Position numbers and translations under genes: made by a program
The notes under the pieces: model-generated
Database searches by the model: none
What the model saw: only the letters and a program-made list of their open reading frames with translations
Told to the model about the DNA's origin: nothing
Shown: positions 1,363 through 17,853 of the stretch, one piece after another
How the letters are laid out: the number at the start of each line of letters is the position of its first letter
Numbering within the stretch: the first letter of the stretch is position 1
DNA from: a virus
IMG/VR virus record: IMGVR_UViG_3300030328_005397
Coordinates: 1 to 43,026 of that record
Reading direction: 5' to 3' (one strand)
Length of the DNA stretch: 43,026 nt

Positions 1363-1372
1363 TTGAAAAATT

Positions 1373-1567
1373 CTATTTAAAAATTAAAAATTTGTCAAAT
1401 TCAATTTCGTCCCAAGTAGCTGAGGCTGAGGACTTTCGGTGCTGGGAATAACATACAGCTAATCTTTGTTTAGGGTCTTTATACTCGTCGTTCATTACCG
1501 AGCTAGCCATACATGCGTCAATAAAGTCTTTTTTGTTTTGACCTTTCTTAGGAGAGGGAAGCGGCAT
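1373..1567 (-). CDS. Conserved-looking small phage protein (MPLPxPKKG type), 64 aa
   Basis: The protein starts MPLPSPKKGQNKKDF and continues with FIDACMASSVM and 'DPKQRLAVCYSQHRK'. From memory, short proteins or domains with this pattern (MPLPxPKxxE...F...CM...D..QR.AVC...W/R) are widespread in large tailed phages, often near capsid or portal genes, without an agreed function. The two cysteines, in ACM and AVCY, are part of that pattern. It is the first gene after the intrinsic terminator at 1582-1606, and a GTGTAATAA motif lies five bases before its ATG, suggesting it begins its own transcript. Confidence 0.75.
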   Translation of the reverse strand: MPLPSPKKGQNKKDFIDACMASSVMNDEYKDPKQRLAVCYSQHRKSSASATWDEIEFDKFLIFK

Positions 1568-2275: not shown

Positions 2276-2749
2276 TTATTCCCCTGAACTACCAAAGCCG
2301 CCGTGGCCCCTGTGAGAAGTATCTAGTGTTTTCATTTTTTTCCACTCAATAGGATGACATTTTTCAATTATTAATTGAGCTATCCTGTCGCCGGGTTTAA
2401 TATCTAGTTTATTCATTGATCCAAACATTGCTTCAAAAGCACTTGGTTTAAAATTATACCCTTCTAAATTAAAATTTATCAATAAAACTTTTATTTCTCC
2501 CCTGTAACCAGAATCTATCACTCCAGCCAAGACATCTATACCTTTTTTACACGCTAAACCGCTCCTTGGGGCGATTCTGCCGTAAAAACCGTCCGGTATC
2601 TCTATGTTTATACCGGTTGAAATTAATTTTCTTTGAAACGGCTCCAACGTTTCGTATTGGGTCGAAAACAAATCGTAACCTGCGTCCGAGGGATTAGCCC
2701 GAAAAGGTTCTTTTGCTTCTGAGTTTAGTTTGCTGTATTTAATCTCCAT
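2276..2749 (-). CDS. dut: dUTP diphosphatase (trimeric dUTPase)
   Basis: This 157-aa protein hydrolyses dUTP to dUMP and pyrophosphate, keeping uracil out of phage DNA and feeding dTMP synthesis. All five motifs are visible: I SDAGYDLFS (21-29), II PRSGLA (61-66), III VLAGVIDSGYRGEI (73-86, with the catalytic Asp in the VIDSGYRG part), IV PGDRIAQLI (119-127) and V RGHGGFGSSG (147-156). Residues 92-112 are a short insertion between III and IV. The length is normal for the trimeric family. It heads the minus-strand dut-KOW-hsp20 unit and diverges from the dNMP kinase gene across the 487-bp gap, so two dNTP-pool genes flank the candidate RNA. Confidence 0.96.
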   Translation of the reverse strand: MEIKYSKLNSEAKEPFRANPSDAGYDLFSTQYETLEPFQRKLISTGINIEIPDGFYGRIAPRSGLACKKGIDVLAGVIDSGYRGEIKVLLINFNLEGYNFKPSAFEAMFGSMNKLDIKPGDRIAQLIIEKCHPIEWKKMKTLDTSHRGHGGFGSSGE

Positions 2750-2866
2750 AGATCAAAAAAAATAATTTTTCACCTAAACAAAATAAGGTCAAGAAAAAAA
2801 CGAATTTTTCCCGAAAAAGGTATCTGGATTATTTTTTTCAAAAATCTATTAGAAAACAGTTGACAA

Positions 2867-3167
2867 TGCCCACCAATAAACCTACAAGGTCCCCATGTAG
2901 TATTGTTGCCCTACTGCATTACTAAGGTGGGCAGCCCCGTAATCTAACGTCCGGCTCTGCTGTGAAGACTTGCAACCGGAGATAACCAATTGGCGTGAAA
3001 GGGCGCTTCATTGGGACAGTAGGTAAGGTGATGTCATATAGAGTGGATATGTTCTACCGTGTATCCCATAAAGGCTAGCCGGGGAGTATTCTCAGGGAAA
3101 AGAAAGATTACCGGTGTTTTGGAATAGCCGCCAATACGGGGAAAGTCTTCGTTTCACTCCGACTTTC
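2867..3167 (+). ncRNA. Candidate structured non-coding RNA, about 300 nt (class unknown)
   Basis: This is the core of the only long gap in the window (2750-3236). No convincing reading frame crosses it. By hand count it is 48% GC over 2881-3180, against 27% in the 60 bases at 2761-2820 and 8% at 3181-3240. Perfect or near-perfect stems read in order: 2867-2874/2926-2933 (TGCCCACC/GGTGGGCA) enclosing 2882-2886/2896-2900; 2950-2954/2976-2980 with inner 2958-2960/2972-2974; 2986-2990/3010-3014 with inner 2993-2995/3004-3006 (loop TGAAAGGG); 3022-3025/3055-3058 enclosing 3035-3039/3047-3051; 3073-3077/3125-3129 enclosing 3079-3082/3111-3114 and 3084-3086/3091-3093; 3141-3147/3161-3167. Unpaired stretches are purine-rich on the plus strand, favouring that orientation. 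TTGACA at 2860 followed 17 bases later by TACAAG is a possible promoter, but it would start the transcript inside the first stem. I could match it to no RNA class I know (tmRNA, RNase P, 6S, group I/II intron); an origin-associated element remains possible. Confidence 0.55.
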
Positions 3168-3185
3168 TAGGGAAAAGTTTATATA

Positions 3186-3193
3186 TATTTATA
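3186..3193 (-). promoter_or_regulatory. T4-late-promoter-like octamer TATAAATA on the minus strand
   Basis: The 8%-GC strip just before the dNMP kinase gene contains TATAAATA when read on the minus strand, identical to the T4 late-promoter box. It would send a transcript through the structured block towards dut. In DNA this AT-rich such a match may be chance, and no T4-type late sigma factor is seen in the window. On the plus strand the same strip has TATTATAAGTATAAG-like stretches that could be the promoter for the gene at 3237. Confidence 0.25.
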
Positions 3194-3236
3194 TTATATT
3201 ATAAGTATAAGTTTAATTGTAATATTTTTAGTTTAA

Positions 3237-3830
3237 ATGAAATTCAAATATAAAAACATAGGTTTAAGTGGAGTAGCTGGATGTGGAAAGAATACTGTTT
3301 GTGATATTATAAAGAAATTCTTAAACAGATTAGATTTGCCATGTAATGAGTTATCTATAGCGAGAAATTTAAAAGAAGAAGTAAACGAAACTTGCAAAAA
3401 ATTATACGGCATAGATTCAATAAACTGTTCAAGAGAGGAAAAGGGGGTGATTAGGCCTTTTTTAGTGTCACACGGGCAAATAAGAAGAAATTTAAGTTCT
3501 GGTAGGCATTGGATAGACCGGTTGGAAAAAGAATTAGATCCAGAAAAAATAAATATTATAACAGATATAAGGTTCAATGAGTACGATAAGGATGAGTGCT
3601 ATTGGATAAAAAACGAAATAAACGGAGTTTTAGTTCATATTTCTAGATTTAATAACATAAATGGTAAAAGAGTTTTTATACCTCCTGCAAATGAGGCGGA
3701 AAGAGAAAATGACCCAAAAGTAAAGGCGGAATCTGATTTTATTTTAAACTGGCCCACCGAACATGACAATAATTTAAAAATATTTAATTGTAAAAAGTTA
3801 TTGAATTGGATTAAGAATATATATGCTTGA
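3237..3830 (+). CDS. Deoxynucleoside monophosphate kinase-like P-loop kinase
   Basis: The 197-aa protein opens with a P-loop, GVAGCGKNT (residues 12-20), in the context IGLSGVAGCGKNTVCDII that is usual for phage dNMP kinases of the T4 gp1 type. Downstream, RPFLVSHGQIRR (about 82-93) and INIITDIRFNEYD (about 114-126, a Walker B-like strand with an Asp-Ile-Arg) match the rest of that fold. It would phosphorylate dNMPs to dNDPs to feed phage DNA synthesis, complementing dut and nrdA on the other side of the gap. It is the first gene of the long plus-strand run. The following gene overlaps by 8 nt. Substrate preference cannot be read from the sequence. Confidence 0.82.
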   Translation: MKFKYKNIGLSGVAGCGKNTVCDIIKKFLNRLDLPCNELSIARNLKEEVNETCKKLYGIDSINCSREEKGVIRPFLVSHGQIRRNLSSGRHWIDRLEKELDPEKINIITDIRFNEYDKDECYWIKNEINGVLVHISRFNNINGKRVFIPPANEAERENDPKVKAESDFILNWPTEHDNNLKIFNCKKLLNWIKNIYA

Positions 3831-4266
3831 AGCAAGTTCTCTTTCACAACAAAAATGCCAACCTATAATGGCATATTGTGGGAAAAACGCTTTAATAAAC
3901 CTTAAATCTAATAACTTAAATTATTTCTCTCATTTAAATTTTAAAAATTTATACTCTTTTTTTTCTTATGAAATAAAAATTTGTAAATTTCCTTCTGAAA
4001 TATTTTCTACTGATAAAGATAATTATTTTGCTTATTTAGTCCAAGTTTACATCGAATCTGAAGATTCTTTCGAAAGTCCATTCTCTGACGCCAATGTTTT
4101 TTTAGAAAAAGATTTTGAAGATTTGATTGAATACAGTATAATCTTACCGCGTTTGTTTAAGAAACATCATCGCTATGTTATTGATCTTCAGTTAGATAGC
4201 GTTTGTTCTTTTATGCAATTCGGGGAAAAGGTTAACTTATGGAAAAAATCCAATGGTCTTTTTTAA
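3823..4266 (+). CDS. Orphan protein, 147 aa
   Basis: No family is recognised. The protein is rich in Phe, Tyr, Ser and Asn with several acidic stretches (for example ESEDSFESPFSD), has four cysteines in no obvious metal-binding pattern, and no signal peptide or membrane segment. Its start overlaps the dNMP kinase end by 8 nt, and its end overlaps the sigma-factor gene by 28 nt, so it is translated as part of that run. Given its position just before the sigma factor, a partner of that protein is conceivable, but nothing in the sequence shows it. Confidence 0.7.
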   Translation: MLEASSLSQQKCQPIMAYCGKNALINLKSNNLNYFSHLNFKNLYSFFSYEIKICKFPSEIFSTDKDNYFAYLVQVYIESEDSFESPFSDANVFLEKDFEDLIEYSIILPRLFKKHHRYVIDLQLDSVCSFMQFGEKVNLWKKSNGLF

Positions 4267-4841
4267 GTGATAATCACTTAGTGGAAAGGGTTAAAAAGAG
4301 AAATTGTGAGAAAAGTCTCTTAGAATTGTCGGAAAGACATAGCGGCCTTTATTTCAAAATTCTAAAAAAATATACTAAAAGCTTCTTCGCAAACAATATA
4401 GATATTAATGAAACAGCCGCCGATAAAAATTTAATTATTTGGAATTCTGTTAAGAGTTTTAGCACAGATAAAAATGTTAAGTTTTCTACTTGGTTAGCTA
4501 ATCAGACAAAATACCACTGTCTAAATACTTTAAATAAAAAAAGCAAAGATAGATTGATAACTACAGGAGACGATATTTTAGATTACCTAAACGAAGAAGA
4601 AGAGTCAAGCGGAGGACCAGTGCTTTTTGAATTTATTGAAAACATATTGAGCCAACTTAAAGACCAAAGAATAAAAAAAATATTTTCAATGAGATACTCT
4701 AAAGAAGAGAAAAAACCTTCTTGGTGCGTTGTAGCTTCAAATTTAAAAATAAGCACTCAAACAGCGATAAATTTACATAATAAAGGAATATCAATCTTGC
4801 GCAAAAAGATAACAAGTGAAAAATTATTGGATAATATTTGA
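4239..4841 (+). CDS. Phage RNA polymerase sigma factor, sigma70 family (region 2 and region 4)
   Basis: The 200-aa protein has the two-domain layout of small, group IV-like sigma factors. Residues about 57-100 form region 2: ADKNLIIWNSVKSFSTDKN followed by VKFSTWLANQTKYHCLN, where the FSTW pattern lies in the promoter-melting helix. Residues about 160-192 form a region 4 helix-turn-helix: WCVVASNLKISTQTAINLHNK, then a basic end. An acidic linker (LNEEEESSG) joins them. It should bind host core RNA polymerase and redirect it to phage promoters, perhaps those bearing the GTGTAATAA motif. It is followed at once by an embedded sigma70-type promoter, whose -35 and -10 lie 10-30 bases past its stop. 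Confidence 0.85.
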   Translation: MEKIQWSFLSDNHLVERVKKRNCEKSLLELSERHSGLYFKILKKYTKSFFANNIDINETAADKNLIIWNSVKSFSTDKNVKFSTWLANQTKYHCLNTLNKKSKDRLITTGDDILDYLNEEEESSGGPVLFEFIENILSQLKDQRIKKIFSMRYSKEEKKPSWCVVASNLKISTQTAINLHNKGISILRKKITSEKLLDNI

Positions 4842-4888: not shown

Positions 4889-5203
4889 ATGTCAAACACT
4901 GACAAAACTAACGACTGGCAAGAGCGCGAACTTGGCGCTCTTTGGGCAAAGAAGAGCAATAACGGCTCTCAATACATGACTGGACACATTGAATTAAAGG
5001 ATGCAAGCGGTAAAGTGCAGCTTGTAGTATTCAAAAATAAATCCAAATACAACGAAGACGGAACTGTAAAGAACGAAAAGTCTCCAGACCTCCGTATTTA
5101 CCTAAGTGAAACTAAAGAGGAAAGAGAAAGCAAAGCTCAAGCTACGCCTGCCGCAGCCCCAGCAGCTTCCAATGATTCCTCAGATGACGGCGCATTGTTT
5201 TAA
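4889..5203 (+). CDS. Small OB/DUF736-like protein with SSB-type acidic C-terminal tail
   Basis: The 104-aa protein has a compact N-terminal part: ERELGALWAKKSNNGSQYMTG at about residues 11-31, strands around GKVQLVVFKNK, then EKSPDLRIYLSE. These are in the style of DUF736 and related small phage proteins (G.lW.k...g..y.sG.i......v.VFkN..k....PDyri). A Lys/Ala/Pro-rich linker follows, and the end is SSDDGALF. That tip resembles the DDDIPF tip by which single-strand-binding proteins recruit partners, although the core is not a standard SSB domain. The start at 4889 follows from the embedded promoter; an upstream in-frame TTG at 4838 would lie before the promoter. The stop codon overlaps the next start (TAATG). 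I infer an abundant accessory DNA-binding or replication protein; the function is unproven. Confidence 0.75.
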   Translation: MSNTDKTNDWQERELGALWAKKSNNGSQYMTGHIELKDASGKVQLVVFKNKSKYNEDGTVKNEKSPDLRIYLSETKEERESKAQATPAAAPAASNDSSDDGALF

Positions 5204-6288
5204 TGGACTTTGCGTTACATCTACCCCTTAACGGGGTAAGCTTTGGTCAGGTTAGCACTGCCCTTCTTCGTGAATTTCACGAGAGGGGCGTGCAGCCTTC
5301 TTTATTTACTGTAGGCCAAATTGATTTAAGTAGCCAAGAAACAACCCCTGAGTTCAACCAATGGATACAGGAAGGAATTAAGCGGGCTTTCGAGGAATAT
5401 AAAAGAGATACTCCTGTTTTCAAGCTGTGGCATCTTAATCAGGACAGCCTCAACTCTTATGCAAAAGACCAAACATTATTCACTTTTTATGAACTCGACC
5501 ATCCAACTTCTTTTGAGGTAAATATAGCTAATAACCAAAAAAATATTATAGTTAGCTCTAATTACGCTAAAAAAATATTAGAAGATCACGGCGTAAACAA
5601 TTGTCACTATATCCCCCTCGGTTTTGACAAACACAACTTTCATGTAAAGGATAACGATTACCTAAAAGGTAAAATCGTATTTAATTTAGGAGGCAAGCTA
5701 GAAAAAAGAAAACACCATAAAGAAGTCATTCAATCTTGGTTAAAAAAGTACGGAAACAACAAGGACTATGTACTTCAGTGCGCTATAGCTAACCCATTTT
5801 TAAAAGAAGAAGATTTCAAGAATCATATATCCCAAATATTAGAAGGTAAACAATATTTTAATATTAACTTTTTGGGAATGATGCAAAAAAACAGTCTTTA
5901 CAACGACTTTTTAAATTCTGGAAACATATCCATAGGAATGTCGGGTGCTGAAGGATGGGGCCTTCCTGAATTTCAGTCTGTTGCCCTCGGGAAACATGCA
6001 GTTATACTTAATGCTAGTTCTTATAAGGATTGGGCTAATAATGATAATTGTGTTTTAGTAGAACCAAACGGTAAAACTGATTCTGCTGATGGAGTTTTCT
6101 TTAAAAAAGGAGGAGCTTTCAACCAAGGTCAAATATTCACGTTTGATCCAGATGAATTCATTGACGGCTGCGAGAAAGCTGTTCAGAGATATAAAGATTC
6201 CCCGATTAATAAAGAAGGGTTAAAGCTTCAAGAAGATTTTAGCTACGCAAAAACCGTTGATAAAATAGTGGAGGTAATGAGTGCCTGA
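5203..6288 (+). CDS. Glycosyltransferase, GT-B fold (GT4-like)
   Basis: This 361-aa protein has the two-lobed GT-B layout. The N-terminal half has the acceptor-side loop NGVSFGQVS (10-18). The second Rossmann lobe begins near 157 (KIVFNLGGKLEKRKHH, the usual 'g.l..rKg...li' strand) and carries the nucleotide-sugar site GAEGWGLPEFQSVALGK (about 248-264), the E-x7-E-type motif of GT4. It should transfer a sugar from an activated donor onto an acceptor; neither can be told from sequence. It is the first gene of the glycan island and starts on the stop codon of the SSB-tail gene, so the island may be read partly from the promoter at 4851. Confidence 0.88.
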   Translation: MDFALHLPLNGVSFGQVSTALLREFHERGVQPSLFTVGQIDLSSQETTPEFNQWIQEGIKRAFEEYKRDTPVFKLWHLNQDSLNSYAKDQTLFTFYELDHPTSFEVNIANNQKNIIVSSNYAKKILEDHGVNNCHYIPLGFDKHNFHVKDNDYLKGKIVFNLGGKLEKRKHHKEVIQSWLKKYGNNKDYVLQCAIANPFLKEEDFKNHISQILEGKQYFNINFLGMMQKNSLYNDFLNSGNISIGMSGAEGWGLPEFQSVALGKHAVILNASSYKDWANNDNCVLVEPNGKTDSADGVFFKKGGAFNQGQIFTFDPDEFIDGCEKAVQRYKDSPINKEGLKLQEDFSYAKTVDKIVEVMSA

Positions 6289-6646
6289 ATACATTTACGA
6301 ACACCCTGAAACCGGCGAGCAAGTTACTGTTTTGCAGAGCGTACACGAAGAACACGTGTACAATATTGATGGCGTAGATTACGATAGGGTTTACACAATC
6401 CCTAACGCCTCTATCGACACCAAAATAAATCCTCATTCAGCGAAAGATTTTCGCGAAAAAGCCAAAGGGTCTATCGGCGATTTATGGGATCAATCTGCCG
6501 AAGCCTCGGCCAAAAGAGAAGAACGTCATGGCCACGACCCAGTAAAGAAAAAGTTCTTCGAAGATTACTCTAAAAGCCGAAAAGGTGCGAAACACCCAAA
6601 AGACCCTAGCAGAAACACAGGCTCCAAAAATTTTACCATTGAATGA
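6281..6646 (+). CDS. FmdB-like small protein lacking the zinc cysteines
   Basis: The 121-aa protein starts MPEYIYEHPETGEQVTVLQSV, the layout of the FmdB/Zn-ribbon family (MPxYeYrC..CG..fe..qs), but the cysteine pairs are absent and it would not bind zinc in that way. Similar cysteine-free versions are known to me from large phages, function unknown. The second half is very basic and polar (RKGAKHPKDPSRNTGSKN). It uses a GTG start at 6281 behind a good GGAGGT ribosome-binding site at 6271, overlapping the glycosyltransferase end by 8 nt. It sits in the glycan run but need not act on sugars. Confidence 0.72.
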   Translation: MPEYIYEHPETGEQVTVLQSVHEEHVYNIDGVDYDRVYTIPNASIDTKINPHSAKDFREKAKGSIGDLWDQSAEASAKREERHGHDPVKKKFFEDYSKSRKGAKHPKDPSRNTGSKNFTIE

Positions 6647-7484
6647 TAAAATTATATTAATTAGTGACTTCTTTATTGATGACTTTGTAGGTGGAGCAGC
6701 TTTAAATGATGAAGAGATTTTTATTACTTTAAACAAACACTACGACGTACAAAAAATCAAAAGTCGCTACTTGTATCCGGGGTTCATTCAAGAGAACCTC
6801 GATTCTTTTTTTATAATATCCAACTTTTTTGGAATTAACCCCTCTATCCGCCAATCAATAGAGGACAATTGCAAATATATTCTTTACTGCCATGACTATA
6901 AGTTTGTGCAACACACCAACCCAGCTATATATCCTAATTTCATAGTTCCTCATAACGAACTTATAAACGTTTCATTTCATCAGAGAGCCAAAGCCATAAT
7001 TTGCCAAACGGCTTTTCAAAAAAATATTTACGATAAGAATTTAAACCTCCCCGAAAAAACAATCAATTTTTCTGGAAATTTGTGGTCGGATGCCCACTTA
7101 GAATTTATACAAGCGCTTTCTCATAACAAAAAAAATAATAAATACGCTGTTGTAGATTCTCCATACCCTCAAAAAGGAACTGCTCAGTCAATAAAGTTTT
7201 GCCAAGATAATAATTTAGATCTTGATGTGATAAAGAATCCGGATTACGAATGTTTTCTACAAACTCTCTCTGAATATTCTGGTTTAGCATTTCATCCATC
7301 GACCCCTGAAACATGTTGTCGCTTAGTTCTAGAGGCTAAAATGTTAGGCTTAGAAGTAGAAACTAATCAGTTAATCGGAGCTTCTTACGAGCCTTGGTAT
7401 GAAAAAAATGGTTTAGAACTGATAAATACTATGAGAAGCAAAAAAGAAGACCTAATAGAATTAATAAGAAATGTCAGACGGTAA
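6639..7484 (+). CDS. Glycosyltransferase-like protein (GT4-type C-terminal lobe)
   Basis: About 281 aa. After the first strand (KIILISDFF) there is FVGGAALNDEEI, the usual N-terminal acceptor loop of GT-B enzymes. The donor-side lobe ends with AFHPSTPETCCRLVLEAKMLGLEVETNQLIGA (cited in part: PETCCRLVLEAKMLG), the E-x7-E-like nucleotide-sugar-binding helix. The protein is shorter than most GT4 members (about 350 aa), so the first lobe is small. The start is uncertain: no in-frame ATG lies at the 5' end. The TTG at 6639 overlaps the previous stop by 8 nt and gives the cleanest N terminus; a GTG at 6585 would add 18 unlikely residues. Confidence 0.8.
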   Translation: MNDKIILISDFFIDDFVGGAALNDEEIFITLNKHYDVQKIKSRYLYPGFIQENLDSFFIISNFFGINPSIRQSIEDNCKYILYCHDYKFVQHTNPAIYPNFIVPHNELINVSFHQRAKAIICQTAFQKNIYDKNLNLPEKTINFSGNLWSDAHLEFIQALSHNKKNNKYAVVDSPYPQKGTAQSIKFCQDNNLDLDVIKNPDYECFLQTLSEYSGLAFHPSTPETCCRLVLEAKMLGLEVETNQLIGASYEPWYEKNGLELINTMRSKKEDLIELIRNVRR

Positions 7485-8202
7485 AATAACAGTAATTTTA
7501 AATGGATACAAACGCCCCCATGCTTTAACGCCTCAAATGGAGGCGCTAAAGAGACAAACCATTAAGCCAGATATGGTTATGTTTTGGCAGAATAAAGACA
7601 GTGATGTACGTTTTGATTACTCAGTCTTATCCAACTGTGTAGTAACTACCAATAATGCAAACTTTGGCGTTTGGGCTCGGTTTGCATATGCACTCAACGC
7701 GACTACTGAGTATGTTTGCGTTTTTGACGACGACACAATCCCCGGACCTAAGTGGTTAGAGAATTGCTTAGAAACCATTAAAACTAATGAAGGTTTGTTG
7801 GGTACTATTGGAGTTATATTTAATGATGAAAATTATATTAGTTACGATAGGTGGGGATGGTCTAACCCTAACGAAGTCACAACTAGAGTAGATATAGTAG
7901 GCCATAGCTGGTTCTTCAAAAGGGAATGGTTGGGAGCTTTCTGGAGGGAGGCTCCAATACCTGAAAGTAGAATATGCGGTGAAGATATGTATTTTTCGTA
8001 CGCCATTCAAAAACATTTAGGTCTCAATACCTACGTGCCACCTCATCCTGAAAAAGATAGAGATATGTGGGGCTCTAATCCTACTTTAGCTTATCAATAC
8101 GGCGTAGACAAAAACGCGATATCTGTTAATTACCACGGATCGCATTTTGGAGACGCTTTAAAATCAACCATTAAGAAAGGATTTAAGTTAATAAAGTCGT
8201 GA
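7471..8202 (+). CDS. Glycosyltransferase, GT-A fold (GT2-like)
   Basis: This 243-aa protein has the GT-A pattern: ITVILNGYKRPHALTPQ at the N terminus (the first beta strand and nucleotide-binding loop), then YVCVFDDDTIPGPKWL at about 80-95, where the Asp triplet is the metal-binding DxD motif. GHSWFFKREWL and 'RICGEDMYFSYAIQKHLGL' (about 160-180) supply the usual second acidic motif (ED), the likely catalytic base. It transfers a sugar from a nucleotide donor; donor and acceptor are unknown. It overlaps the genes on both sides by 14 and 4 nt. Confidence 0.87.
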   Translation: MSDGKITVILNGYKRPHALTPQMEALKRQTIKPDMVMFWQNKDSDVRFDYSVLSNCVVTTNNANFGVWARFAYALNATTEYVCVFDDDTIPGPKWLENCLETIKTNEGLLGTIGVIFNDENYISYDRWGWSNPNEVTTRVDIVGHSWFFKREWLGAFWREAPIPESRICGEDMYFSYAIQKHLGLNTYVPPHPEKDRDMWGSNPTLAYQYGVDKNAISVNYHGSHFGDALKSTIKKGFKLIKS

Positions 8203-9203
8203 AAAAAATATTGATATGTTATGGCACTAGGCCAGAGTATATTAAAATAGAACCTATAATTCTTCACGAGTTATCACAATGGCATAATATACGAACTTTA
8301 TTTACTGGTCAGCATAAAGATATAGGTAAAGGGACTGTCAAGCCGGATTACGCATTTGAGATGCACGACAGCGCTCCTAACCGTCTTAATTCTATTATTT
8401 CCAGTATAACCGGGTCTTATTCCTTAGATCAAGTCCTAGAGGACGGTTTTACTCACGTGTTAGTCCAAGGAGACACAGCCTCGGCTTTTACTTGTGCTCT
8501 ATCCGCTTTCAACAAAGGCTTAAAAGTCATACATTTAGAGGCAGGTTTACGCACTTACGATAAAAACCACCCTTACCCTGAAGAAGTTTATAGGCAATGT
8601 ATATCAAGGATTGCAGATATACATCTTTGTGCCACTAAATCAAATAAAACGAACTTGCTAAAAGAAATAACTCAAGGTGAAATACATATTGTAGGCAACA
8701 CAGTGCTAGACCATCTTCAAGATATTCCCACAAGCTACAACAACGATGTTCTTATTACCTTACATCGCAGAGAAAATCATAAGTCAATTCCTTTTTGGTA
8801 TTCTCAAATAGAGGACATTGCTCAAGATAATCCGGATTTAAATTTTATTTTTGTGTCTCACCCAAATCCAAACTCGAGATGCGTTCTTAAAAAAGGCTTA
8901 ACCAATGTCTCAACGGTTGACCCTATGAGCCATGCATATTTTATAAAAAGAGTTTCTGCATGTAGGTTTTTAATTAGTGACAGCGGCGGAGTTCAAGAGG
9001 AAGCTTCCTTTCTTAAAAAGAGGGTCATTGTATGCAGGGAAACAACAGAAAGACCTGAAGCTCTCGACTCATTCAATCACCTTTGCAAAAAGGTAGGAGA
9101 CTTACCTGAAATTTTTAATAAAGTAAAAGAAAACTACATCCCTACTTCAGAATGTCCATTTGGAGATGGTAAATCTGCCGAAAAGATCTTACAGGTTATA
9201 TGA
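8199..9203 (+). CDS. wecB: UDP-N-acetylglucosamine 2-epimerase (non-hydrolysing)
   Basis: The 334-aa protein converts UDP-GlcNAc to UDP-ManNAc, the precursor of ManNAcA-containing glycans. It shows the GT-B-like epimerase signature: CYGTRPEYIKIEPI at the start (the usual G-T-R-P-E-x-I-K), FTGQHKD (about 45), LVQGDTASA (about 93), HLEAGLRTYDKNHPYPEE (about 114-131), TLHRRENH (about 188), and SDSGGVQEEASFLKKRV (about 260-276). All motifs carrying catalytic Asp/Glu/His residues are present. It is slightly shorter than bacterial WecB (about 370 aa). The GTG start at 8199 overlaps the previous stop (GTGA). The UDP-sugar dehydrogenase at 15738 could oxidise its product. Confidence 0.94.
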   Translation: MKKILICYGTRPEYIKIEPIILHELSQWHNIRTLFTGQHKDIGKGTVKPDYAFEMHDSAPNRLNSIISSITGSYSLDQVLEDGFTHVLVQGDTASAFTCALSAFNKGLKVIHLEAGLRTYDKNHPYPEEVYRQCISRIADIHLCATKSNKTNLLKEITQGEIHIVGNTVLDHLQDIPTSYNNDVLITLHRRENHKSIPFWYSQIEDIAQDNPDLNFIFVSHPNPNSRCVLKKGLTNVSTVDPMSHAYFIKRVSACRFLISDSGGVQEEASFLKKRVIVCRETTERPEALDSFNHLCKKVGDLPEIFNKVKENYIPTSECPFGDGKSAEKILQVI

Positions 9204-10108
9204 AGGTAACTGTCACAGGAGGAAGAGGTTTTATAGGGAGTCATTTTGTTGAAGCTGCACTCGAGCGAGGCTGGAAGGTGCATGATATAGACAAAATGGG
9301 TTACGCTTCTCATAGAACTCTACCTTGGGATAAGAATCCTAACTACTCATTAACACACGCTAATATAGCAAATGTTAGGCATATACCCACATGTAATATA
9401 TTGATAAATTTTGCCGCTGAAAGTCATGTAGATAACTCTATAACTAATTGTGCCCCTTTTATTGAGTCGAATGTCAACGGAGTCCACAATTTATTAGAAC
9501 TAGTAAGAGTGACCCCTAAATACAAAAGGCCATTATTTTTTCATATTAGTACGGATGAAGTATATGGAGATATAGAAGAAGGCTCTTTTAAAGAAACAGA
9601 TAAGCTTAATCCTAGTAACCCTTACTCAGCGACAAAAGCTTGCTCTGAGATGTTAATAAATTCTTATCATAGAACTTACGGAGTTGACTACGTAATGACT
9701 AGGAGTGGTAATAATTATGGAGCTCGTCAATACGAGGAGAAGTTGATTGCTAAATGTATATCTTGCTTAAGAGATGGTGAAAAAATACCTGTTCACGGAG
9801 ACGGTTCCTACGTAAGGGATTGGACATATGTTAAGGATAATGTGGATGGGATCATGAGTATTATTGATAAAAAGATAAAAAATCAATGCTTCAATATAGC
9901 CGCTAATAATTACATACAAAATATAGATGTAGTTCGGGCTATTATAAAAACTTTTAATAAAACGGACGAAGAGATACAATTTGTTGAAGATAGATGGGGC
10001 CAAGATATTCGATACTCGGTAGATACATCGAAGATAACAAAAGCTACAGGATGGAAACCTAAATATTTTTACGGCTTAAATTTAGATTTTATAAATGAAA
10101 AGTTATAA
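9200..10108 (+). CDS. rmlB: dTDP-glucose 4,6-dehydratase-like NAD-dependent enzyme
   Basis: The 302-aa short-chain dehydrogenase has a Rossmann motif, TGGRGFIGSHF (5-15), then NFAAESHVDNSI (about 70-81) and HISTDEVYGD (about 114-123). STDEVYGD is the diagnostic active site of dTDP-glucose 4,6-dehydratases (Thr, Asp, Glu). NPYSATKACSE provides the Tyr-x3-Lys pair, and RDWTYVKDNVDGI is the usual substrate-binding strand. It would make a nucleotide-linked 4-keto-6-deoxy sugar, the substrate for the aminotransferase (11275) and acetyltransferase (10895) close by. UDP-GlcNAc-type substrates are possible. It overlaps the next gene by 14 nt. Confidence 0.88.
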   Translation: MKVTVTGGRGFIGSHFVEAALERGWKVHDIDKMGYASHRTLPWDKNPNYSLTHANIANVRHIPTCNILINFAAESHVDNSITNCAPFIESNVNGVHNLLELVRVTPKYKRPLFFHISTDEVYGDIEEGSFKETDKLNPSNPYSATKACSEMLINSYHRTYGVDYVMTRSGNNYGARQYEEKLIAKCISCLRDGEKIPVHGDGSYVRDWTYVKDNVDGIMSIIDKKIKNQCFNIAANNYIQNIDVVRAIIKTFNKTDEEIQFVEDRWGQDIRYSVDTSKITKATGWKPKYFYGLNLDFINEKL

Positions 10109-10904
10109 AAAAGAATTCGATAAACTTTTAAATTTAGTAAAGAGCGAAACTCCTTTTGCTTTTTCTAGATTTTCGGATGGAGAAGTTACCGTACTTAGAA
10201 ACAAAACTGTAGTTTTAGCGGAAGATCATTTTATTCAAGGCGATATTCATGGGTCTAGTAAGATTTATGCAAATAGCTACATGCCCGAAGAGCAAAAAAG
10301 TTTTATACCTGAGAAAAATAAAAAACAACACTGCAAATTGATAGACGCTTTTCTCTTCCGAAAAGAAAATTACATAAAAGGTATACCCGGCCAAAATAGT
10401 TTAGACGGCGGAGAGTCGTGGAAATTTTGTACTGAACTATACGGCACAGAAGACTGGGAAAATTTATCTTTTTCTAATGTCATGATAAACGGTAATTATA
10501 GCAGGTTTATTAACGAAATGCTACCGCTGTTTACTCAACGTGACATTGTTTTAGTAGCTAACGAGAACTCAAAGTTAGATAAATTACCATTTGACGTTAA
10601 AAAGTTTTTTCCAATTGGGACCAATTGCATGGTTAATAATTTTGATCTGCCTGAAAAAATTAGTGAGTGGATAAAAGAAAATAATATATCCAATCATTTA
10701 TTTCTTTTTTCTGCCGCTTCGCTTAGTAATTTTTTATGTTATGATCTTTTTAAGAATCATGACAATAATCAATATATGGATATAGGTTCTTCGCTTGGCC
10801 CGTTGCTCCAGCTCGAAGGCTGGAAGTCCAGTAGGACTTATTTATTAGCTTATTGGGGAAATGTTGACCACCCAGTACTTCATGAGGAAGACGTATGGAA
10901 TTAG
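10095..10904 (+). CDS. Probable GT-D-fold glycosyltransferase (DUF1792-like)
   Basis: In this 269-aa protein, FAFSRFSDGEVTVLRNKT near residues 21-38 has the R-x-x-D-G-E core of the GT-D family (seen in streptococcal serine-rich-repeat glycosylation), where the Asp and Glu bind metal and nucleotide sugar. MDIGSSLGPLL near 228-238 matches that family's C-terminal 'iDiGs.lg' strand. In between are NVMINGNYSRFINEM and IVLVANENSK (about 150-160), a Rossmann-like strand. I infer sugar transfer, with lower certainty than for the neighbouring enzymes, since I compare from memory only. It overlaps both neighbours by 14 and 10 nt. Confidence 0.65.
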   Translation: MKSYKKEFDKLLNLVKSETPFAFSRFSDGEVTVLRNKTVVLAEDHFIQGDIHGSSKIYANSYMPEEQKSFIPEKNKKQHCKLIDAFLFRKENYIKGIPGQNSLDGGESWKFCTELYGTEDWENLSFSNVMINGNYSRFINEMLPLFTQRDIVLVANENSKLDKLPFDVKKFFPIGTNCMVNNFDLPEKISEWIKENNISNHLFLFSAASLSNFLCYDLFKNHDNNQYMDIGSSLGPLLQLEGWKSSRTYLLAYWGNVDHPVLHEEDVWN

Positions 10905-11278
10905 TAGAATGTAGTAATTTACCCGGAGACCACTGGTACGGTATTCTTGATATTAGGAATGATAACAGAGAAGGCTTTGGAGACCCTAGTATAATACCAA
11001 CAGCAACTCATCATGCCTATATGTTTAAAAACTTTTCCAATTACTTAGTGTGCGTTGATAGCGGCGAAGTGATAGGCTTTATAGGTCATGTTGAAAATGA
11101 TATAAGACTAGCTACAAAGAAAACACATCAAAATAAAGGTGTCGGTAAGTTTATGGTCGAGGCTTTCATGGAAAAATTTCCAAATTCTTTCGCTAAGGTT
11201 AAAATTGACAACGAAGCAAGTAGGAGACTGTTTGAAAGCTGCGGGTTCCGTAAGAAATATTATATATTAGAGAAGTGA
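10895..11278 (+). CDS. GNAT-family N-acetyltransferase
   Basis: The 127-aa protein has the acetyl-CoA motif A in the form QNKGVGKFMVEAFMEK (about 90-105; the Q/R-x-x-G-x-G/A pattern) and motif B in NEASRRLFESCGFRKK (about 107-122), where the Asn and the final Gly-Phe are typical. The central strands VIGFIGHVEND precede motif A. Small GNAT proteins in sugar loci often acetylate an amino group made by a DegT-type aminotransferase. Such a gene starts 4 nt inside its end (11275), and an RmlB-like dehydratase is two genes upstream, so a dehydrate-aminate-acetylate route is a reasonable inference. Confidence 0.85.
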   Translation: MELVECSNLPGDHWYGILDIRNDNREGFGDPSIIPTATHHAYMFKNFSNYLVCVDSGEVIGFIGHVENDIRLATKKTHQNKGVGKFMVEAFMEKFPNSFAKVKIDNEASRRLFESCGFRKKYYILEK

Positions 11279-11880
11279 GAAATCCTTTTGAGATAGTTGA
11301 GTGGTTTGAGGAAGCTATAGCAGAATACACGGGAGCTCCGTACGCTATTGCTTGCGATAGCTGCACTGACGCTATTTTTCTTTGTTGCAAGTATTGCGAA
11401 GTTCAAGGCTCTACTGTAACAATACCTTCTCGTACATATGTATCACCGCCTCAATCTATATTACAAGCTGGTGCTAGAGTTGAATTCGAAGATATTGAAT
11501 GGAGCGGTATTTACCAATTAAAACCACACCCAATTTATGATGCGGCGAAAAGGCTAACGTCAAACATGTATATACCGGGTTCTTATATGTGTTTATCCTT
11601 TCACCACAAGAAGCCGCTTAAAATAGGAAAGGGTGGTATGATACTTACAGATGATGAAAAAGCTGTAGAAACCATAAGAAGACTAAGGTACGAAGGAAGA
11701 ACAATAGGTGTACCTTTTCAAGATGATGATTTGGGAGATGGCGGATGGAATATGTATATGACTCCTGAGCAAGCGGCCAGAGGGCTAACCCTGTTGATGG
11801 CTTACCCCCAACATGCAGAAGACCAAATAGAAGACCCTCCCTACAGAGACTTGCGGACTTTTAATTTGTTTAAAAAATAA
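11275..11880 (+). CDS. Short DegT/DnrJ/EryC1-family aminotransferase
   Basis: PLP-dependent sugar aminotransferase family. The 201-aa protein covers the core fold only: AIACDSCTDAIFLCCK (the cofactor-phosphate loop), IPSRTYVSPPQSILQAGARVEF (cited in part: YVSPPQSILQAGA), IYDAAKRL with the Asp (89) that pairs with the pyridine nitrogen, and SFHHKKPLKIGKGGMILTDD with the Schiff-base Lys at 112 or 113. Usual family members are about 370 aa, so the C-terminal domain is missing or very short; the end is a clean stop followed by the next gene in TAATG overlap, not a visible frameshift. Similar short forms may be a phage subfamily. The start is GTG at 11275, overlapping the acetyltransferase. Confidence 0.82.
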   Translation: MRNPFEIVEWFEEAIAEYTGAPYAIACDSCTDAIFLCCKYCEVQGSTVTIPSRTYVSPPQSILQAGARVEFEDIEWSGIYQLKPHPIYDAAKRLTSNMYIPGSYMCLSFHHKKPLKIGKGGMILTDDEKAVETIRRLRYEGRTIGVPFQDDDLGDGGWNMYMTPEQAARGLTLLMAYPQHAEDQIEDPPYRDLRTFNLFKK

Positions 11881-12776
11881 TGATAACTTTTTTAGAATTG
11901 GGCTCTTTCGGGAGATTAGGAAACCAGCTGTTTCAATACGCTGCCCTGAAGGCCTTAGGTCTGGCAAATGGATATGAAGTAAAAATACCTCACCCTTCTG
12001 CAAAAGAATGGCACGGTCAAAAATGTTTCTTAGATCAATTTAATATCAATTCACCCTACATCGAAAAGAATGACCTTGAGTCTCTTAAATATTTATATAT
12101 TGAGAAAAACCCTGATAAATTAGATGAAAATTTTTTCTCTACCCCCAACCATACTAATATACAGGGATATTTTCAAAATTTATTTTATTTTGAAAAATTT
12201 AACAATCAAATCAAAAAGGAACTTACCCCAAAAGATTACTTATTATTAGAAGCCCAAGAGAATATTAAAAAAATTAAAAAAGAATATCCTCACTACGAAA
12301 TAGTTTCAGTTCACATGAGGAGAGGAGATCTCGTGGACATGGAGCATAGAAAATCTGCCGAAAACTTATTTGGCAGTAATAATGGAGATTTAAAAAAAGA
12401 TTCATATTGGGCAAAATATTTTTTACAAGCCTCTAAATCTTTTAAAAACAAAAAAGTAAAATTTTTAGTTTTTTCTGGAGGTCAAAGAGGTAATGAAGAT
12501 AACACTAAAGATATCTCTTGGTGCAAAGACAATCTTAAGGATGATCACTTTATTTTTTCTGAGGGAAATAGCCCCATGCAAGATTTTTCTTTGATTATGT
12601 CTTGCGATCATAATATATTATCTCCGGGAAGCTCTTTCGGCTGGTGGGCGGCTTACCTTAACAAAAATGATTTTAAAACCGTTATAGCGCCCTTTGAATA
12701 TCATCCAGATGAAATAGACAAGCCTCATAAAGCAGGTTTTTATCCTAAAAATTGGAAAATTTTATCTCAAATATGA
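11880..12776 (+). CDS. Alpha-1,2-fucosyltransferase-like glycosyltransferase (GT11)
   Basis: The 298-aa protein has the GT11 signature set: GRLGNQLFQYAALKALGL (11-28), HMRRGDLV (145-152, the conserved HxRRGD that binds GDP-fucose) and the C-terminal SPGSSFGWWAAYL (about 250-262). The length matches bacterial members such as WbsJ and FutC. These enzymes transfer fucose from GDP-fucose, usually in alpha-1,2 linkage. The island also contains Gmd (19625), and a phosphomannomutase lies at 42236, so part of the donor pathway is in the same genome. The next gene overlaps by 4 nt (ATGA). Confidence 0.92.
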   Translation: MITFLELGSFGRLGNQLFQYAALKALGLANGYEVKIPHPSAKEWHGQKCFLDQFNINSPYIEKNDLESLKYLYIEKNPDKLDENFFSTPNHTNIQGYFQNLFYFEKFNNQIKKELTPKDYLLLEAQENIKKIKKEYPHYEIVSVHMRRGDLVDMEHRKSAENLFGSNNGDLKKDSYWAKYFLQASKSFKNKKVKFLVFSGGQRGNEDNTKDISWCKDNLKDDHFIFSEGNSPMQDFSLIMSCDHNILSPGSSFGWWAAYLNKNDFKTVIAPFEYHPDEIDKPHKAGFYPKNWKILSQI

Positions 12777-13585
12777 ATTATTTAGTTTTAGGTTCATCAG
12801 GACAAGTAGGAGCAGCTTTAACTAGTTTTCTAAAAGCTGAAGGAGAAAATGTTATAGAGTTTGATTTGGTTAACGGGTTTCATCAAGACCTACGCACAGA
12901 AGGTATGGTAAACCACGCTATAGAAATGGCGGATTTTGTTTTCTTTTTAGCTTTTGACGTGGGAGGATCACGTTATCTAAGTAAATATCAGCATGACTTC
13001 AAATTTATAGATAACAACACATCTCTACAGCTTTATACTTTTAGACAGCTTAAAAAATATAATAAACCTTTTATTTATGCATCTTCTCAAATGTCTAGCA
13101 TGGGGTTTTCTCCTTATGGATCTTGCAAGGCTATAGGTGAAGCTTTTACAAAAAGTTTAAATGGCTTAATAGTCAAATTTTGGAACGTATATGGCCTAGA
13201 GCATAATAAAGAGAAATTTCACGTCATAACCGACTTTATAAACAAAGCGCGAAATGAAAATGAAATAAATATGCTCACTTCTGGGGAAGAAGAAAGGCAG
13301 TTCCTCTACTCCAAAGACTGTAGTGAATGTTTATACAATTTATCAAAGTTATACGACGAAATATCGAGAAGCGAAGACCTTCATGTGACAAGCTTCAAGT
13401 GGACTAAAATCTTAGATATAGCAAATTTTATTTCATCTCATTTTGAAAACTGTCCTGTTAATGTCTCTAAAAATTCAGACTCAGTTCAAATGGGAGTGAG
13501 GAATGAACCAAATGAAACTATACTTAAATACTGGCAACCTAAAACAGATATAAACACAGGGATAAAAAATATAATAAACTCATGA
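12773..13585 (+). CDS. NAD-dependent sugar epimerase/dehydratase (extended SDR)
   Basis: This 270-aa protein has a Rossmann loop GSSGQVGAAL (residues 7-16), then YASSQMSSMGFSPYGSCKAIGEAF (in part: SPYGSCKAIGE), which provides the catalytic Ser and the Tyr-x3-Lys pair, and FWNVYGLEHNKEKFH, like the R-x-N-V-Y-G-p segment of extended SDRs. ERQFLYSKDCSECL corresponds to the usual 'R.f.yv.D...a' strand. The acidic residues that distinguish dehydratase from epimerase are not clear, so the substrate is unknown. As Gmd is present without an obvious GDP-fucose synthase, this is one candidate for that step. The ATG at 12773 overlaps the previous stop; a TTG 21 bases upstream is less likely. Confidence 0.83.
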   Translation: MNYLVLGSSGQVGAALTSFLKAEGENVIEFDLVNGFHQDLRTEGMVNHAIEMADFVFFLAFDVGGSRYLSKYQHDFKFIDNNTSLQLYTFRQLKKYNKPFIYASSQMSSMGFSPYGSCKAIGEAFTKSLNGLIVKFWNVYGLEHNKEKFHVITDFINKARNENEINMLTSGEEERQFLYSKDCSECLYNLSKLYDEISRSEDLHVTSFKWTKILDIANFISSHFENCPVNVSKNSDSVQMGVRNEPNETILKYWQPKTDINTGIKNIINS

Positions 13586-14703
13586 AGAAAGTTCTTGTAG
13601 CTGGTTTTTTTGATTTATTCCACAGTGGTCATGCCCGCTTTTTAGAAGAAGCATCGTCTTATGGCGAGGTAAGCGCTGTTGTTGGCTCTGATGAAAATTC
13701 ATTGATAAATAAAGGTAAACGGCCAGTATACACCCAAAAAGAAAGATGCTATATACTATCTTCCTTAAAGTTTGTATCAAAGGTTTTTTCACCCGAAGAC
13801 TGCACTCCATTAAACTTTGCTAGCCTTCTAGAATCCCATAACATATTCATAGTTAACGAAGACGGACACACAGAAGAAAAACAAAATTTATGTGAATCGA
13901 AAGGGGTGGAATACATAGTCTTGAAAAGAGAGCCTTTAAACGGCCTCAAACGAAACTCAAGCACTTCCATAAAAGAACAGATAAATCTTATACCTCAAAG
14001 ACTCGATATAGTAGGGTTTTTTGACCAAAAACTATTAAACTCAGTTTATCCGGGGTCAGTAATATTAGCCAATATAAAACCCATTCACGCAGAAGAACGT
14101 TCGGGGCTTTCTTCTTCTACTACAAAAATTATAAATAAGATTTTTGGGCCGTGCTTGCCAAAGCATTTAGCGCCAATAGAATTAGCTAAAATTGTTTTTG
14201 CTATAGAAAACCCACCCGACAGAAAATACATTTCGGGAGTAGTTGATCAGTTAGGTATTTGTTTACCGGGTATAAACCGCCTACATTTTAAAAATGAATA
14301 TTTTCCAAGCGTCGTTGAAGAGTCTTTAATAGAGACGAGAAGATGGCTAAGTAAATACACCTATCTAAAACAAACAAAACCTCGACCCAAAAACTATGAG
14401 GTTTTTGACGGTAGAGAGAATTTAAACAACCTTAATGTTAGAAATCTCGCTGAGTTAGGGGAGAAAGTTTGGTTATCAATACAAGATAAAGATATATTTT
14501 CTTTAGGAAAGTTTTTGAACGAAACGCATCAAGCTCAAAAGACAATGATCCCGGGTTATGAGAGTGATTACGCTCGTGATATTTTAAAAGATTTAGAGTC
14601 CAATCATTTCGGAGTAAAGCTCATGGGCGCAGGGGGATACGGATACGCTTTAGTATTAAGCGATAATCCTGACGAAGATTTTATAAAAGTAGAAATCACT
14701 TAA
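13582..14703 (+). CDS. Fused cytidylyltransferase-like and GHMP sugar kinase
   Basis: This 373-aa protein joins two activities. Residues 1-131 are a TagD/RfaE-type nucleotidyltransferase: GFFDLFHSGHARFLEEA with the HxGH signature at 14-17, then KRNSSTSIKEQ, the usual R-x-x-S-T-S/T-x-I motif. Residues about 137-373 resemble D-glycero-D-manno-heptose 7-phosphate kinases (HddA type): RLDIVGFFDQ, a phosphate-binding SGLSSSTTKI (174-183), YISGVVDQLGICLPGINRL (216-234, compare GGKQDQ..A..GGlN), and KLMGAGGYGYALVL (346-359), the C-terminal GHMP glycine motif. The kinase part is compact, with little sequence between its first strand and motif 2. It probably phosphorylates a sugar at C1 and then attaches a nucleotide. 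Which sugar is unknown; a heptose is suggested only by the family. Confidence 0.8.
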   Translation: MKKVLVAGFFDLFHSGHARFLEEASSYGEVSAVVGSDENSLINKGKRPVYTQKERCYILSSLKFVSKVFSPEDCTPLNFASLLESHNIFIVNEDGHTEEKQNLCESKGVEYIVLKREPLNGLKRNSSTSIKEQINLIPQRLDIVGFFDQKLLNSVYPGSVILANIKPIHAEERSGLSSSTTKIINKIFGPCLPKHLAPIELAKIVFAIENPPDRKYISGVVDQLGICLPGINRLHFKNEYFPSVVEESLIETRRWLSKYTYLKQTKPRPKNYEVFDGRENLNNLNVRNLAELGEKVWLSIQDKDIFSLGKFLNETHQAQKTMIPGYESDYARDILKDLESNHFGVKLMGAGGYGYALVLSDNPDEDFIKVEIT

Positions 14704-14969
14704 TGAAAAAATGGGAACCGCCAACTGATACCTCTGATTCCTTAAATCATTTAAGAGACATGCTGCTGTTTCATGCGAATGGGAAAGCAGACATGATGAA
14801 ATACTTGAAAGAAGTCATATTGATATGCAAAGAATTCAAGTTTGATAAAGATGTTTACGGGCACGGCGGAAGCGCTGCCACATTTGACGCCCTCGATGTT
14901 ATTAAAAAAATAGAGAATACGTGCACTAAAGCATACAAGATAGGAGCGCATAAACCAATAAAGCAATGA
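14703..14969 (+). CDS. Orphan protein, 88 aa
   Basis: This short mixed-charge protein is mostly helical in character ([21 protein letters not shown], then [11 protein letters not shown] and [15 protein letters not shown]). It contains a Gly-rich loop GHGGSA near residue 54, three cysteines and no signal peptide. The TAATG overlap with the fused kinase upstream and ATGA overlap with the methyltransferase downstream place it inside the sugar operon. I do not recognise it. The GHGGSA loop raises the idea of a small partner or regulator of the sugar enzyme before it, but this is speculation. Confidence 0.68.
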
Positions 14970-15745
14970 ATCAAGATATAAATAAAGTTTCAGAATTTTG
15001 GAATACAAGGCCTTGTAATATTCGCCATTCAAAACTAAAATTGGGGACTATTGATTATTTTAACGAGGTAGAGAAGAGAAAGTATACAGTAGAACCGCAT
15101 ATTCCTAAATTTGCAGAGTTTGATTTGTGGAAAGGTAAGAAAGTTTTAGAGGTGGGGTGTGGTATAGGGACTGATGCGATTAACTTTGCCCGAGCAGGAG
15201 CAGAATACACAGGGCTAGAACTGTCTGAAAAAAGTTTAAACATAACAAAAAAACGTTTTGAGGTATTTGAACTAAAAGGAAGACTCCTTTTAGGTAATGC
15301 TGAAAAACTTGAAGACCTACTTAAAGGTGAAAAATTTGATCTAGTTTATTCTTTCGGCGTAATTCATCACACCCCTAACCCAAGTATAGTTTTTAAAAAA
15401 ATAGAATCGCTTTTAAATTTTTATTCTGAGTTTCGTTTTATGGTATATGCTAAAAACTCTTGGAAAAACTTCATGATACAAGAAGGCCTCGACCAACCAG
15501 AAGCTCAAAGTGGATGCCCTGTAGCGTATACCTATACAAGAAAGGATTTAACTACTATATTAAAAAATTATGAAATAACACAAATGACCCAAGAGCATAT
15601 ATTTCCTTACAATATTGAAAAGTATATAAATTACGAATACGAAGTGGAGCCTTGGTTTAAAGAAATGCCCCCAGAATTATTTAAAATGTTAGAAAAAAAA
15701 CTTGGATGGCACATGCTTGTAAAATGTAAAATTAAACATGATTAA
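14966..15745 (+). CDS. SAM-dependent methyltransferase (class I)
   Basis: The 259-aa protein has the Rossmann-type SAM site: [22 protein letters not shown] (motif I, part; about residues 54-75), GLELSEKSL (acidic residue for ribose, about 78-86), [11 protein letters not shown] (motif II region) and [12 protein letters not shown] (about 130-141, post-II loop). [12 protein letters not shown] near the N terminus is a feature of small methyltransferases found in glycan and lipid loci. It probably methylates a sugar or carries out another surface-glycan modification; the target cannot be read. It overlaps both neighbours. Confidence 0.87.
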
Positions 15746-17108: not shown

Positions 17109-17114
17109 AAAAAT

Positions 17115-17852
17115 ATGAAAGCTGCACTTTGCTTACATGGACTGTTTGACTCTTTAGAAGACAACACCTCTAAAGGTCTTAATGGGTATAATTATATAAA
17201 AAAACATATACTCGATTACCCGGGCCTGAAAACTGACGTTTATATTCATAGTTGGCAGCCCGAATTAAAAAAACAAATAGTAGATTTGTATAATCCAAAA
17301 GATCACCTTTTTGAAAAACAAATTAATTTTTTACCTACGGCCCGTAAATTAAACCTAGACCTACCGCTTAGTTACCCACGTCCTCCTGCTCGTGTTCTAT
17401 CTCATTTTTATTCTATAGGTGAATGTTTTAAACTATTAAAAAAACAAAAAGAAATCAATTACGACATAGTTATAAAATCTCGTTTTGATCTTGGCCAAAT
17501 AAACGCTAAAGCTGCTTGGAAGCCTGATATTACTCACATGGGGTGTATAAATTTTAACCCTTGTAATGATCTAAGCAGAATTAATATGGCCTATTGGATG
17601 GATGAATTTATGCTTAAAGAAGGCCCACCTGACTCTTGGTTTTACGGAAACAGTAAAGTTATGGAATGCTTTAGCCACATCTACGAAAGTATAGTTGGTT
17701 ATATTGAAAACGATAAAGAATGGAAAAACAAAATAATTTACCAACTAGGAGAGAACAACATCAGCAACGCGAGCGTTCTATATAAAAAATTTTTTGAGGA
17801 TAATAGGCTTTGGGATAATAGATTAGCCTTAAAAGTATCGCCTGATATTTAG
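17115..17852 (+). CDS. Glycosyltransferase-like protein, 245 aa
   Basis: The N terminus, MKAALCLHGLFDSLEDN, and the following YIHSWQPELKKQI resemble proteins in surface-polysaccharide loci (WavE-like and similar) that begin with 'alcl.G..R' and 'diYiHtW'. YDIVIKSRFDLG near residues 115-126 has the D-x-V-x-x-x-R-x-D pattern of these proteins, and PPDSWFYGNSKVMECFSHIYE matches their 'DwfwfGs...m..f...y' segment. This suggests a GT-A-like fold, but the DxD motif is not clear-cut. I infer a glycosyltransferase-related role from motif and context. It is six bases after the dehydrogenase and one base before the HAD-transferase fusion. Confidence 0.66.
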   Translation: MKAALCLHGLFDSLEDNTSKGLNGYNYIKKHILDYPGLKTDVYIHSWQPELKKQIVDLYNPKDHLFEKQINFLPTARKLNLDLPLSYPRPPARVLSHFYSIGECFKLLKKQKEINYDIVIKSRFDLGQINAKAAWKPDITHMGCINFNPCNDLSRINMAYWMDEFMLKEGPPDSWFYGNSKVMECFSHIYESIVGYIENDKEWKNKIIYQLGENNISNASVLYKKFFEDNRLWDNRLALKVSPDI

Positions 17853-17853
17853 C

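Follow-up and report, generated by a model that had tools for sequence, protein, structure and literature searches.

In the window—the whole stretch of 43,026 nucleotides of viral DNA analysed here—a dut gene (2276-2749, minus strand) and a dNMP kinase gene (3237-3830, plus strand) border a gap at 2750-3236. In line with the non-coding call of the sequence-only reading, this gap, which lies where the coding strands diverge, holds no plausible open reading frame, with none of more than 35 amino acids inside it. That reading's count of G+C at 2881-3180 was exact (144/300), and the A+T-rich flanks recompute to 26% and 7% GC. Comparison across phages indicates that positions 2895-3183 (plus strand) are a conserved, structured non-coding RNA of ~290 nt, which we call the type-1 RNA. 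Its ends are estimates: +1 would fall at ~2895, rather than at the 5' limit of 2867 given earlier, and the 3' end is placed where conservation stops, at ~3183. The features of the locus are as follows.

2860-2888, plus strand: sigma70-type promoter (TTGACA at 2860-2865, 17-bp spacer, TACAAG at 2883-2888)
2895-3183, plus strand: predicted structured non-coding RNA (cross-phage conservation, 98% paired structure model)
2895-2902/2912-2919, plus strand: helix A, at the 5' end of the RNA (4 doubly changed pairs, 91.8% of cells paired)
2905-2911/2929-2935, plus strand: helix B (6/7 pairs doubly changed, 100% of cells paired)
2936-2938/3138-3140, plus strand: helix C, CCC with GGG, outside H1 (100% paired, one-sided changes only; weak)
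2939-2945/3105-3111, plus strand: long-range helix H1, which closes the core (GUAAUCU/AGAUUAC, GCAAUCU/AGAUUGC, GUGUUCU/AGAACAC, GAUCUCU/AGAGAUC)
2950-2954/2976-2980 plus 2958-2960/2972-2974, plus strand: hairpin D (UCCGG/CCGGA, UCCAG/CUGGA, CCCAG/CUGGG, CACGG/CCGUG)
2962-2971/3143-3152, plus strand: alternative long-range helix Q, pairing the loop of D with the 5' arm of T
2986-2990/3010-3014, plus strand: hairpin E (3 doubly changed pairs, 100% of cells paired)
3019-3066, plus strand: second pseudoknot, helix P (3019-3023/3053-3057) crossing helix F (3045-3049/3062-3066), with covariation
3027-3029/3078-3080, plus strand: short helix K, GGU with GCC, enclosing F (GGU/GCC, GGU/ACC and GGC/GCC in close relatives)
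3093-3102, plus strand: purine motif copy 1, CAGGGAAAAG, a direct repeat with copy 2
3119-3122/3131-3134, plus strand: hairpin G (UUGG/CCAA, UCGG/CCGA, UUUUAG/CUAAAA, CGCUUAG/CUAAGCG)
3141-3147/3161-3167, plus strand: 3' hairpin T, invariant in close relatives except for one mismatch in L097
3168-3177, plus strand: purine motif copy 2, TAGGGAAAAG, at the 3' end, a direct repeat with copy 1
3184-3236, plus strand: A+T-rich linker to the kinase start codon (53 nt, ~7% GC)
3237-3830, plus strand: dNMP kinase gene (phrog_139, E = 6e-13), which always adjoins the type-1 RNA

IMG/VR was scanned with kinase, dUTPase and DNA patterns, and the complete contigs of polymerase relatives were searched with a covariance model. 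The element occurs in 12 other contigs (L002, L003, L004, L005, L007, L097, L098, L118, L122, L128, L155 and L156); within the element L097 is identical to L098, as L155 is to L156, leaving 10 further distinct sequences, or 11 including the window. All 11 lie directly upstream of the dNMP kinase gene in the same orientation, and the conserved unit spans ~290-330 nt across all type-1 members. Among close members the element has 76-94% nucleotide identity, compared with 55-70% protein identity for the adjacent kinase. L122, L128 and L155 are very divergent, scoring 22.8-30.5 bits with covariance model R1, which was built on an RNAalifold structure in conflict with H1 and was used for searching only. 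In L002, L003 and L007/L073, a deaminase-like gene sits between dut and the promoter, with the RNA and kinase side intact; HAE and PCxxC motifs were recognized in it by eye, and it resembles dCMP deaminase. By DNA, no relative of the element was found among 50,697 phage records, and the kinase protein had no tblastn match in these records either, so that neither route led to a cultured relative. The element was not found in two scans of bacterial genomes: 20 pattern matches were due to chance, and the best covariance-model match, in L222, was a poor alignment away from the pattern. A first pattern scan had returned many freshwater matches that were unrelated to the element. A literature search limited to open-licence papers found no description of the type-1 RNA.

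A fold no more stable than shuffled sequence had been named beforehand as evidence against a structured element, and folding energy was indeed no better than that of shuffled sequence (z = 0.27 on the plus strand and -0.84 on the minus strand), so the idea had to be tested by comparison; the null result probably arises because nested folding cannot score pseudoknots. Covariation in homologous junctions, a check that had been proposed with the original idea, bore it out. Our model consists of 11 helices with two pseudoknots and was scored on an eight-sequence alignment (A4), in which 98.0% of cells are paired. Twenty-one pairs are changed on both sides, compared with 12.1 in shuffles (0/500 shuffles reach 21), several of the paired changes being single evolutionary events common to a clade, and the covariation score is 0.328 compared with 0.172 when shuffled. 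Controls in which the partners were slid had 31-48% of cells paired and 1-3 doubly changed pairs, a comparison that favours the model, as it was drawn from the same eight sequences. In three divergent sequences that were read by hand, A, H1, D, E, P, F, G, Q and T form with different letters; helix B was not identified in these three.

The 5' end of the RNA is predicted to be an H-type pseudoknot, as the loop of helix A is the 5' arm of helix B; in divergent members helix A reads, for example, GGCGAGC/GCUCGCC. The 11-nt loop of hairpin D likewise serves as the 5' arm of helix Q. Elsewhere hairpin E is formed by CUUGAAA/UUUCAAG or GUUAUC/GAUAAC. The variants of helix P are GUAGG/UCUAC, GUAGU/ACUAC and GAGGC/GCCUC, and those of helix F are GGAUA/UAUCC and GGGUG/CACCC. 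Helix K has 3 bp in the window and, by eye, 7 bp in L155 and L128 (ACGGAUC/GAUCCGU and ACAGAAC/GUUCUGU). These covarying helices, with their two pseudoknots and long-range pairings, replace the stems, at least ten and several of them nested, of the sequence-only reading. Its closing stem (2867-2874/2926-2933) is perfect in this window only, with 2-6/8 pairs in relatives, because its 5' arm coincides with the spacer between the two boxes of a conserved promoter; its GGCTA/TAGCC stem (3073-3129) holds in the nearest relatives only and is lost in the others, with 2/5 pairs. The 7-bp terminal hairpin (3141-3147/3161-3167) is kept in relatives. What survives is a structured RNA of ~290 nt in no known class, on the strength of covariation, a conserved promoter and zero Rfam matches, with shifted boundaries and a different fold.

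Two pairings compete for the 3' end. Hairpin T, which reads AAAAGUC/GACUUUU in L128/L155 with G-C to A-U changes, and helix Q are mutually exclusive over their shared strand. The variants of Q are GUGAAGACUU/AAGUCUUCGU, CGGAGACUU/AAGUCUCCG and AGAGAGACUU/AAGUCUCUCU, and it covaries at three positions (A-U to G-C, G-C to A-U, and U-G/C-G/G-C); the version of the model that contains Q has 22 doubly changed pairs. The Q and T energies are close (-9.9/-7.1, -13.9/-7.1, -14.8/-17.9 and -12.3/-15.4 kcal/mol). Because Q excludes the conserved hairpin T yet also covaries, our model suggests that the 3' end of the RNA probably has two states, with T and Q alternating.

The loops and purine motifs of the type-1 RNA are kept nearly letter for letter. 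Both motif copies change together in L097 (AGGAAAAAG) and in L122/L128/L155 (AAGGGAAGU), and the pair is the best direct repeat in each of the seven type-1 RNAs tested, at a spacing of 75-100. A 9-letter repeat is not significant in a single RNA (shuffles reach 8-9 and, once, 11), and we count the repeat as evidence owing to its consistency across members.

TTGAC-N18-TA occurs at the same place in 11/11 distinct type-1 sequences, with spacers that are unrelated in sequence. In the close group, helix A begins ~6-7 nt past the -10 box, where transcription should start. Promoter-like sites of this kind number 3 in the window compared with 0.57 expected; the other two TTGACA-N16-18-TANAA sites are at 1371-1398 (minus strand) and 40964-40992 (plus strand). 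So strong a consensus promoter would fit an abundant RNA. A phage sigma factor gene (Sigma70_r2) is located at 4239-4841, two genes past the RNA, and is kept in relatives. This sigma factor may account for the host-type, early promoter of the RNA, as later genes could rely on a different one.

The type-1 RNA matches no known class. At the gathering score Rfam has no family for the window element; at E<=10 there are two matches only, both on the other strand and attributable to chance, and type-1 relatives have no Rfam match. ARAGORN predicts no tRNA or tmRNA in the window and no tmRNA in 25 related loci. These results agree with the absence of tmRNA, RNase P, 6S and group I/II intron hallmarks that had been noted by inspection. 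A relic or far-diverged representative of an established class (group I/II intron, RNase P, tmRNA, 6S, GOLLD or ROOL) would also be a large, pseudoknotted phage RNA; however, we consider this descent very improbable, given that neither the plus strand of the window (E<=10) nor the relatives match Rfam and that no tmRNA was predicted.

GOLLD and ROOL are large, ornate, multi-pseudoknot phage non-coding RNAs to which no function has been assigned (PMC12286853). The type-1 RNA resembles them as a large, covariation-supported phage RNA with several pseudoknots; GOLLD itself has a 3' half that is strongly conserved. It differs in its length (~290 nt rather than 600-800 nt), in its place beside a dNMP kinase gene with its own sigma70 promoter rather than in a tRNA island, in its possible two-state 3' end and in its lack of an Rfam match. 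Because it fails the GOLLD and ROOL features tested—the Rfam covariance models are unmatched (plus strand, E<=10) and it is shorter than at least 600 nt—it is a new family of the loosely defined large structured phage RNAs and not a GOLLD or ROOL member. Phage ICP1 makes non-coding RNAs of ~800 nt and ~300 nt, the longer of which is the most abundant ICP1 transcript (PMC7567579). Both cases involve long gaps without open reading frames in a large lytic phage genome, but the locus is different and no sequence relation was found (no match in the phage collection).

Regulatory leaders offer other parallels. In cobalamin-type riboswitch leaders, a loop pairs to a regulatory hairpin, much as the loop of core hairpin D pairs with a strand of 3' hairpin T beside a gene; unlike those leaders, the type-1 RNA lacks an Rfam match and a platform of the terminator or ribosome-site kind, and its core is unusually long. 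The HK022 put and EAR antitermination leaders are hairpins of ~65-120 nt. They too are structured RNAs right after an early promoter, ahead of a long phage operon, but the type-1 RNA is longer; this comparison was made through Rfam only.

At this junction, relatives that have the kinase often carry long non-coding stretches of other kinds. A type 2 RNA of ~430 nt (L123, L124, L125, L129, L135, L139, L145, L134, L136 and, in part, L152) lies, for example, at 3529-3970 (plus strand) of L123, and the family occurs at or near the kinase junction. It has its own covarying helices, such as UUAGCC/GGCUAA changing to CUAAUC/GAUUAG, and, in the members tested, a direct repeat of 14-18 letters (of the GGATAAGCAGTCA type), one copy internal and the other at the 3' end. 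A type 3 RNA (L127, L132, L137, L148, L149, L196 and L197; on the opposite strand in L191/L192) has a strong terminator-like hairpin and a U-rich stretch near its 3' end, and the repeat test singled out its repeat only in L127, L132, L148 and L196. In L191/L192 its transcription points away from the kinase, towards a DUF1360-like gene and tRNAs. The genes that follow these other families differ (dNMP kinase, glycosyltransferase-like and IMPDH-like), and the members of types 2 and 3 that were sampled had no Rfam match. In L193, L194, L195, L199, L200 and L140, there is no gap of such size at the junction.

Two readings of the type-1 RNA fit the evidence. The one that we favour, at a probability of about 0.48, is that of a ~290-nt phage non-coding RNA that would be transcribed early and independently and act in trans. 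Host sigma70 RNA polymerase would make it early from its own promoter, and its two pseudoknots and the long-range helix would keep the folded core compact, with the 3' end in either pairing: local hairpin T, or Q, in which the D loop takes the 5' arm of T. The stable RNA, accumulating separately, may then associate with a protein, with a ribonucleoprotein machine of the host or with further copies of itself, and the paired purine motifs could be contact sites. Its own promoter, its conserved loops and the lack of a terminator or a conserved linker argue for action in trans: a scan of 3141-3236 found no intrinsic terminator, and the linker (3184-3236) is present in relatives, its letters not conserved. 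So too do the downstream genes of types 2 and 3, which vary or are reversed, and a promoter-like TTGACT-17-TATCAT between the type-3 RNA and the kinase in L127 (in the last 60 bases), although these arguments draw on families that are set beside type 1 by position and not by homology. Antisense matches of the RNA to the rest of the window show no excess over shuffles, which counts against this reading.

Against action in trans stand the leader-like placement of 11/11 distinct type-1 copies, between promoter and kinase on the same strand, and the lack of a terminator or processing site that would give type 1 a discrete 3' end. This placement is that of a leader acting in cis on the rightward replication operon (kinase, sigma factor and DNA-binding protein). 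In such a leader the core would sense a ligand, a protein or RNA polymerase, and the exchange of Q and T, which are mutually exclusive, both conserved and near-equal in energy, would set read-through or translation in the manner of a riboswitch or of put-type antitermination; the absence of a terminator between the RNA and the operon is also in keeping with this. As an expression platform, however, type 1 offers the Q/T exchange without an intrinsic terminator in the scan or an obvious sequestration of the ribosome site, and the 53-nt linker is not conserved. The constancy of gene and strand seen in all 11 distinct type-1 copies does not extend to types 2 and 3, in which another gene lies downstream and the strand can be reversed, a pattern that would also fit a generic operon leader. 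We regard the cis-acting leader as a possible but tentative explanation and place the trans-acting RNA above it.

A replication origin of the RNA-primed kind, with priming or DNA unwinding by the transcript or by the A+T-rich strip that follows it, was suggested by the divergent junction, where a promoter and purine-rich tracts are followed by a strip of 7% GC and where cumulative GC skew turns in the window. In the 144-kb and 170-kb relatives, however, the skew follows gene strand at every switch rather than the element, the letters of the strip are not conserved, and covariation demands a fold of the RNA, not of DNA alone; the origin association that the sequence-only reading had offered gained no specific support, and we judge it improbable. 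In size and pseudoknots the RNA also resembles those that guide, or serve as cofactors for, phage RNA-guided nucleases and reverse-transcriptase systems; such a partner would be encoded at another locus of the genome, and TnpB/Cas12f-like zinc-ribbon genes are present in the RNA-bearing phages L176 (G021) and L177 (G040). However, the zinc-ribbon domain is absent from the window and from RNA-bearing contigs of 144 kb, 170 kb and 57 kb (PF07282 is absent from the window, G001, G006 and G031 and present in G021 and G040, in records that may be incomplete). The reverse transcriptase domain PF00078 is absent from six RNA-bearing records, which may likewise be incomplete, with positive controls, and the RNA has no variable guide segment. 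A partnership with TnpB or reverse transcriptase is largely refuted, and a guide role is very unlikely.

More speculatively, and with the odds against it, types 1-3 could be far-diverged branches of one RNA system, with at least three types in all, at the same divergent junction of a large uncultivated phage group. Each would combine a promoter of its own with pseudoknots and with a repeated purine motif, one copy internal and one at or close to the 3' end; the repeats would exchange strands with a shared partner, making a phage RNA switch or machine without a described counterpart.

The carriers are tailed double-stranded DNA phages, to judge from the terminase large subunit, RIIA-like protein, ribonucleotide reductase and minor tail protein encoded by the 170-kb contig. 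The replication operon of the window encodes a tubulin/FtsZ-family protein (22909-24177; PF00091, E = 1e-11) that is possibly a phage cytoskeleton protein. At 5203-20653, a long run of genes that appear from their translations to be glycosyltransferase- and sugar-nucleotide-enzyme-like lies inside the phage operon.

Phage genomes are tight and the core of the RNA is near-identical despite 55-70% identity of the neighbouring proteins; the RNA must therefore do something important. Work on isolates would not meet it, as there is no relative in ~50,000 phage records. At ~290 nt it is small enough for synthesis and probing in vitro, and the two-state 3' end is a testable handle. The type-1 RNA adds a new family to the small group of large, structured RNAs described from phages, GOLLD and ROOL.
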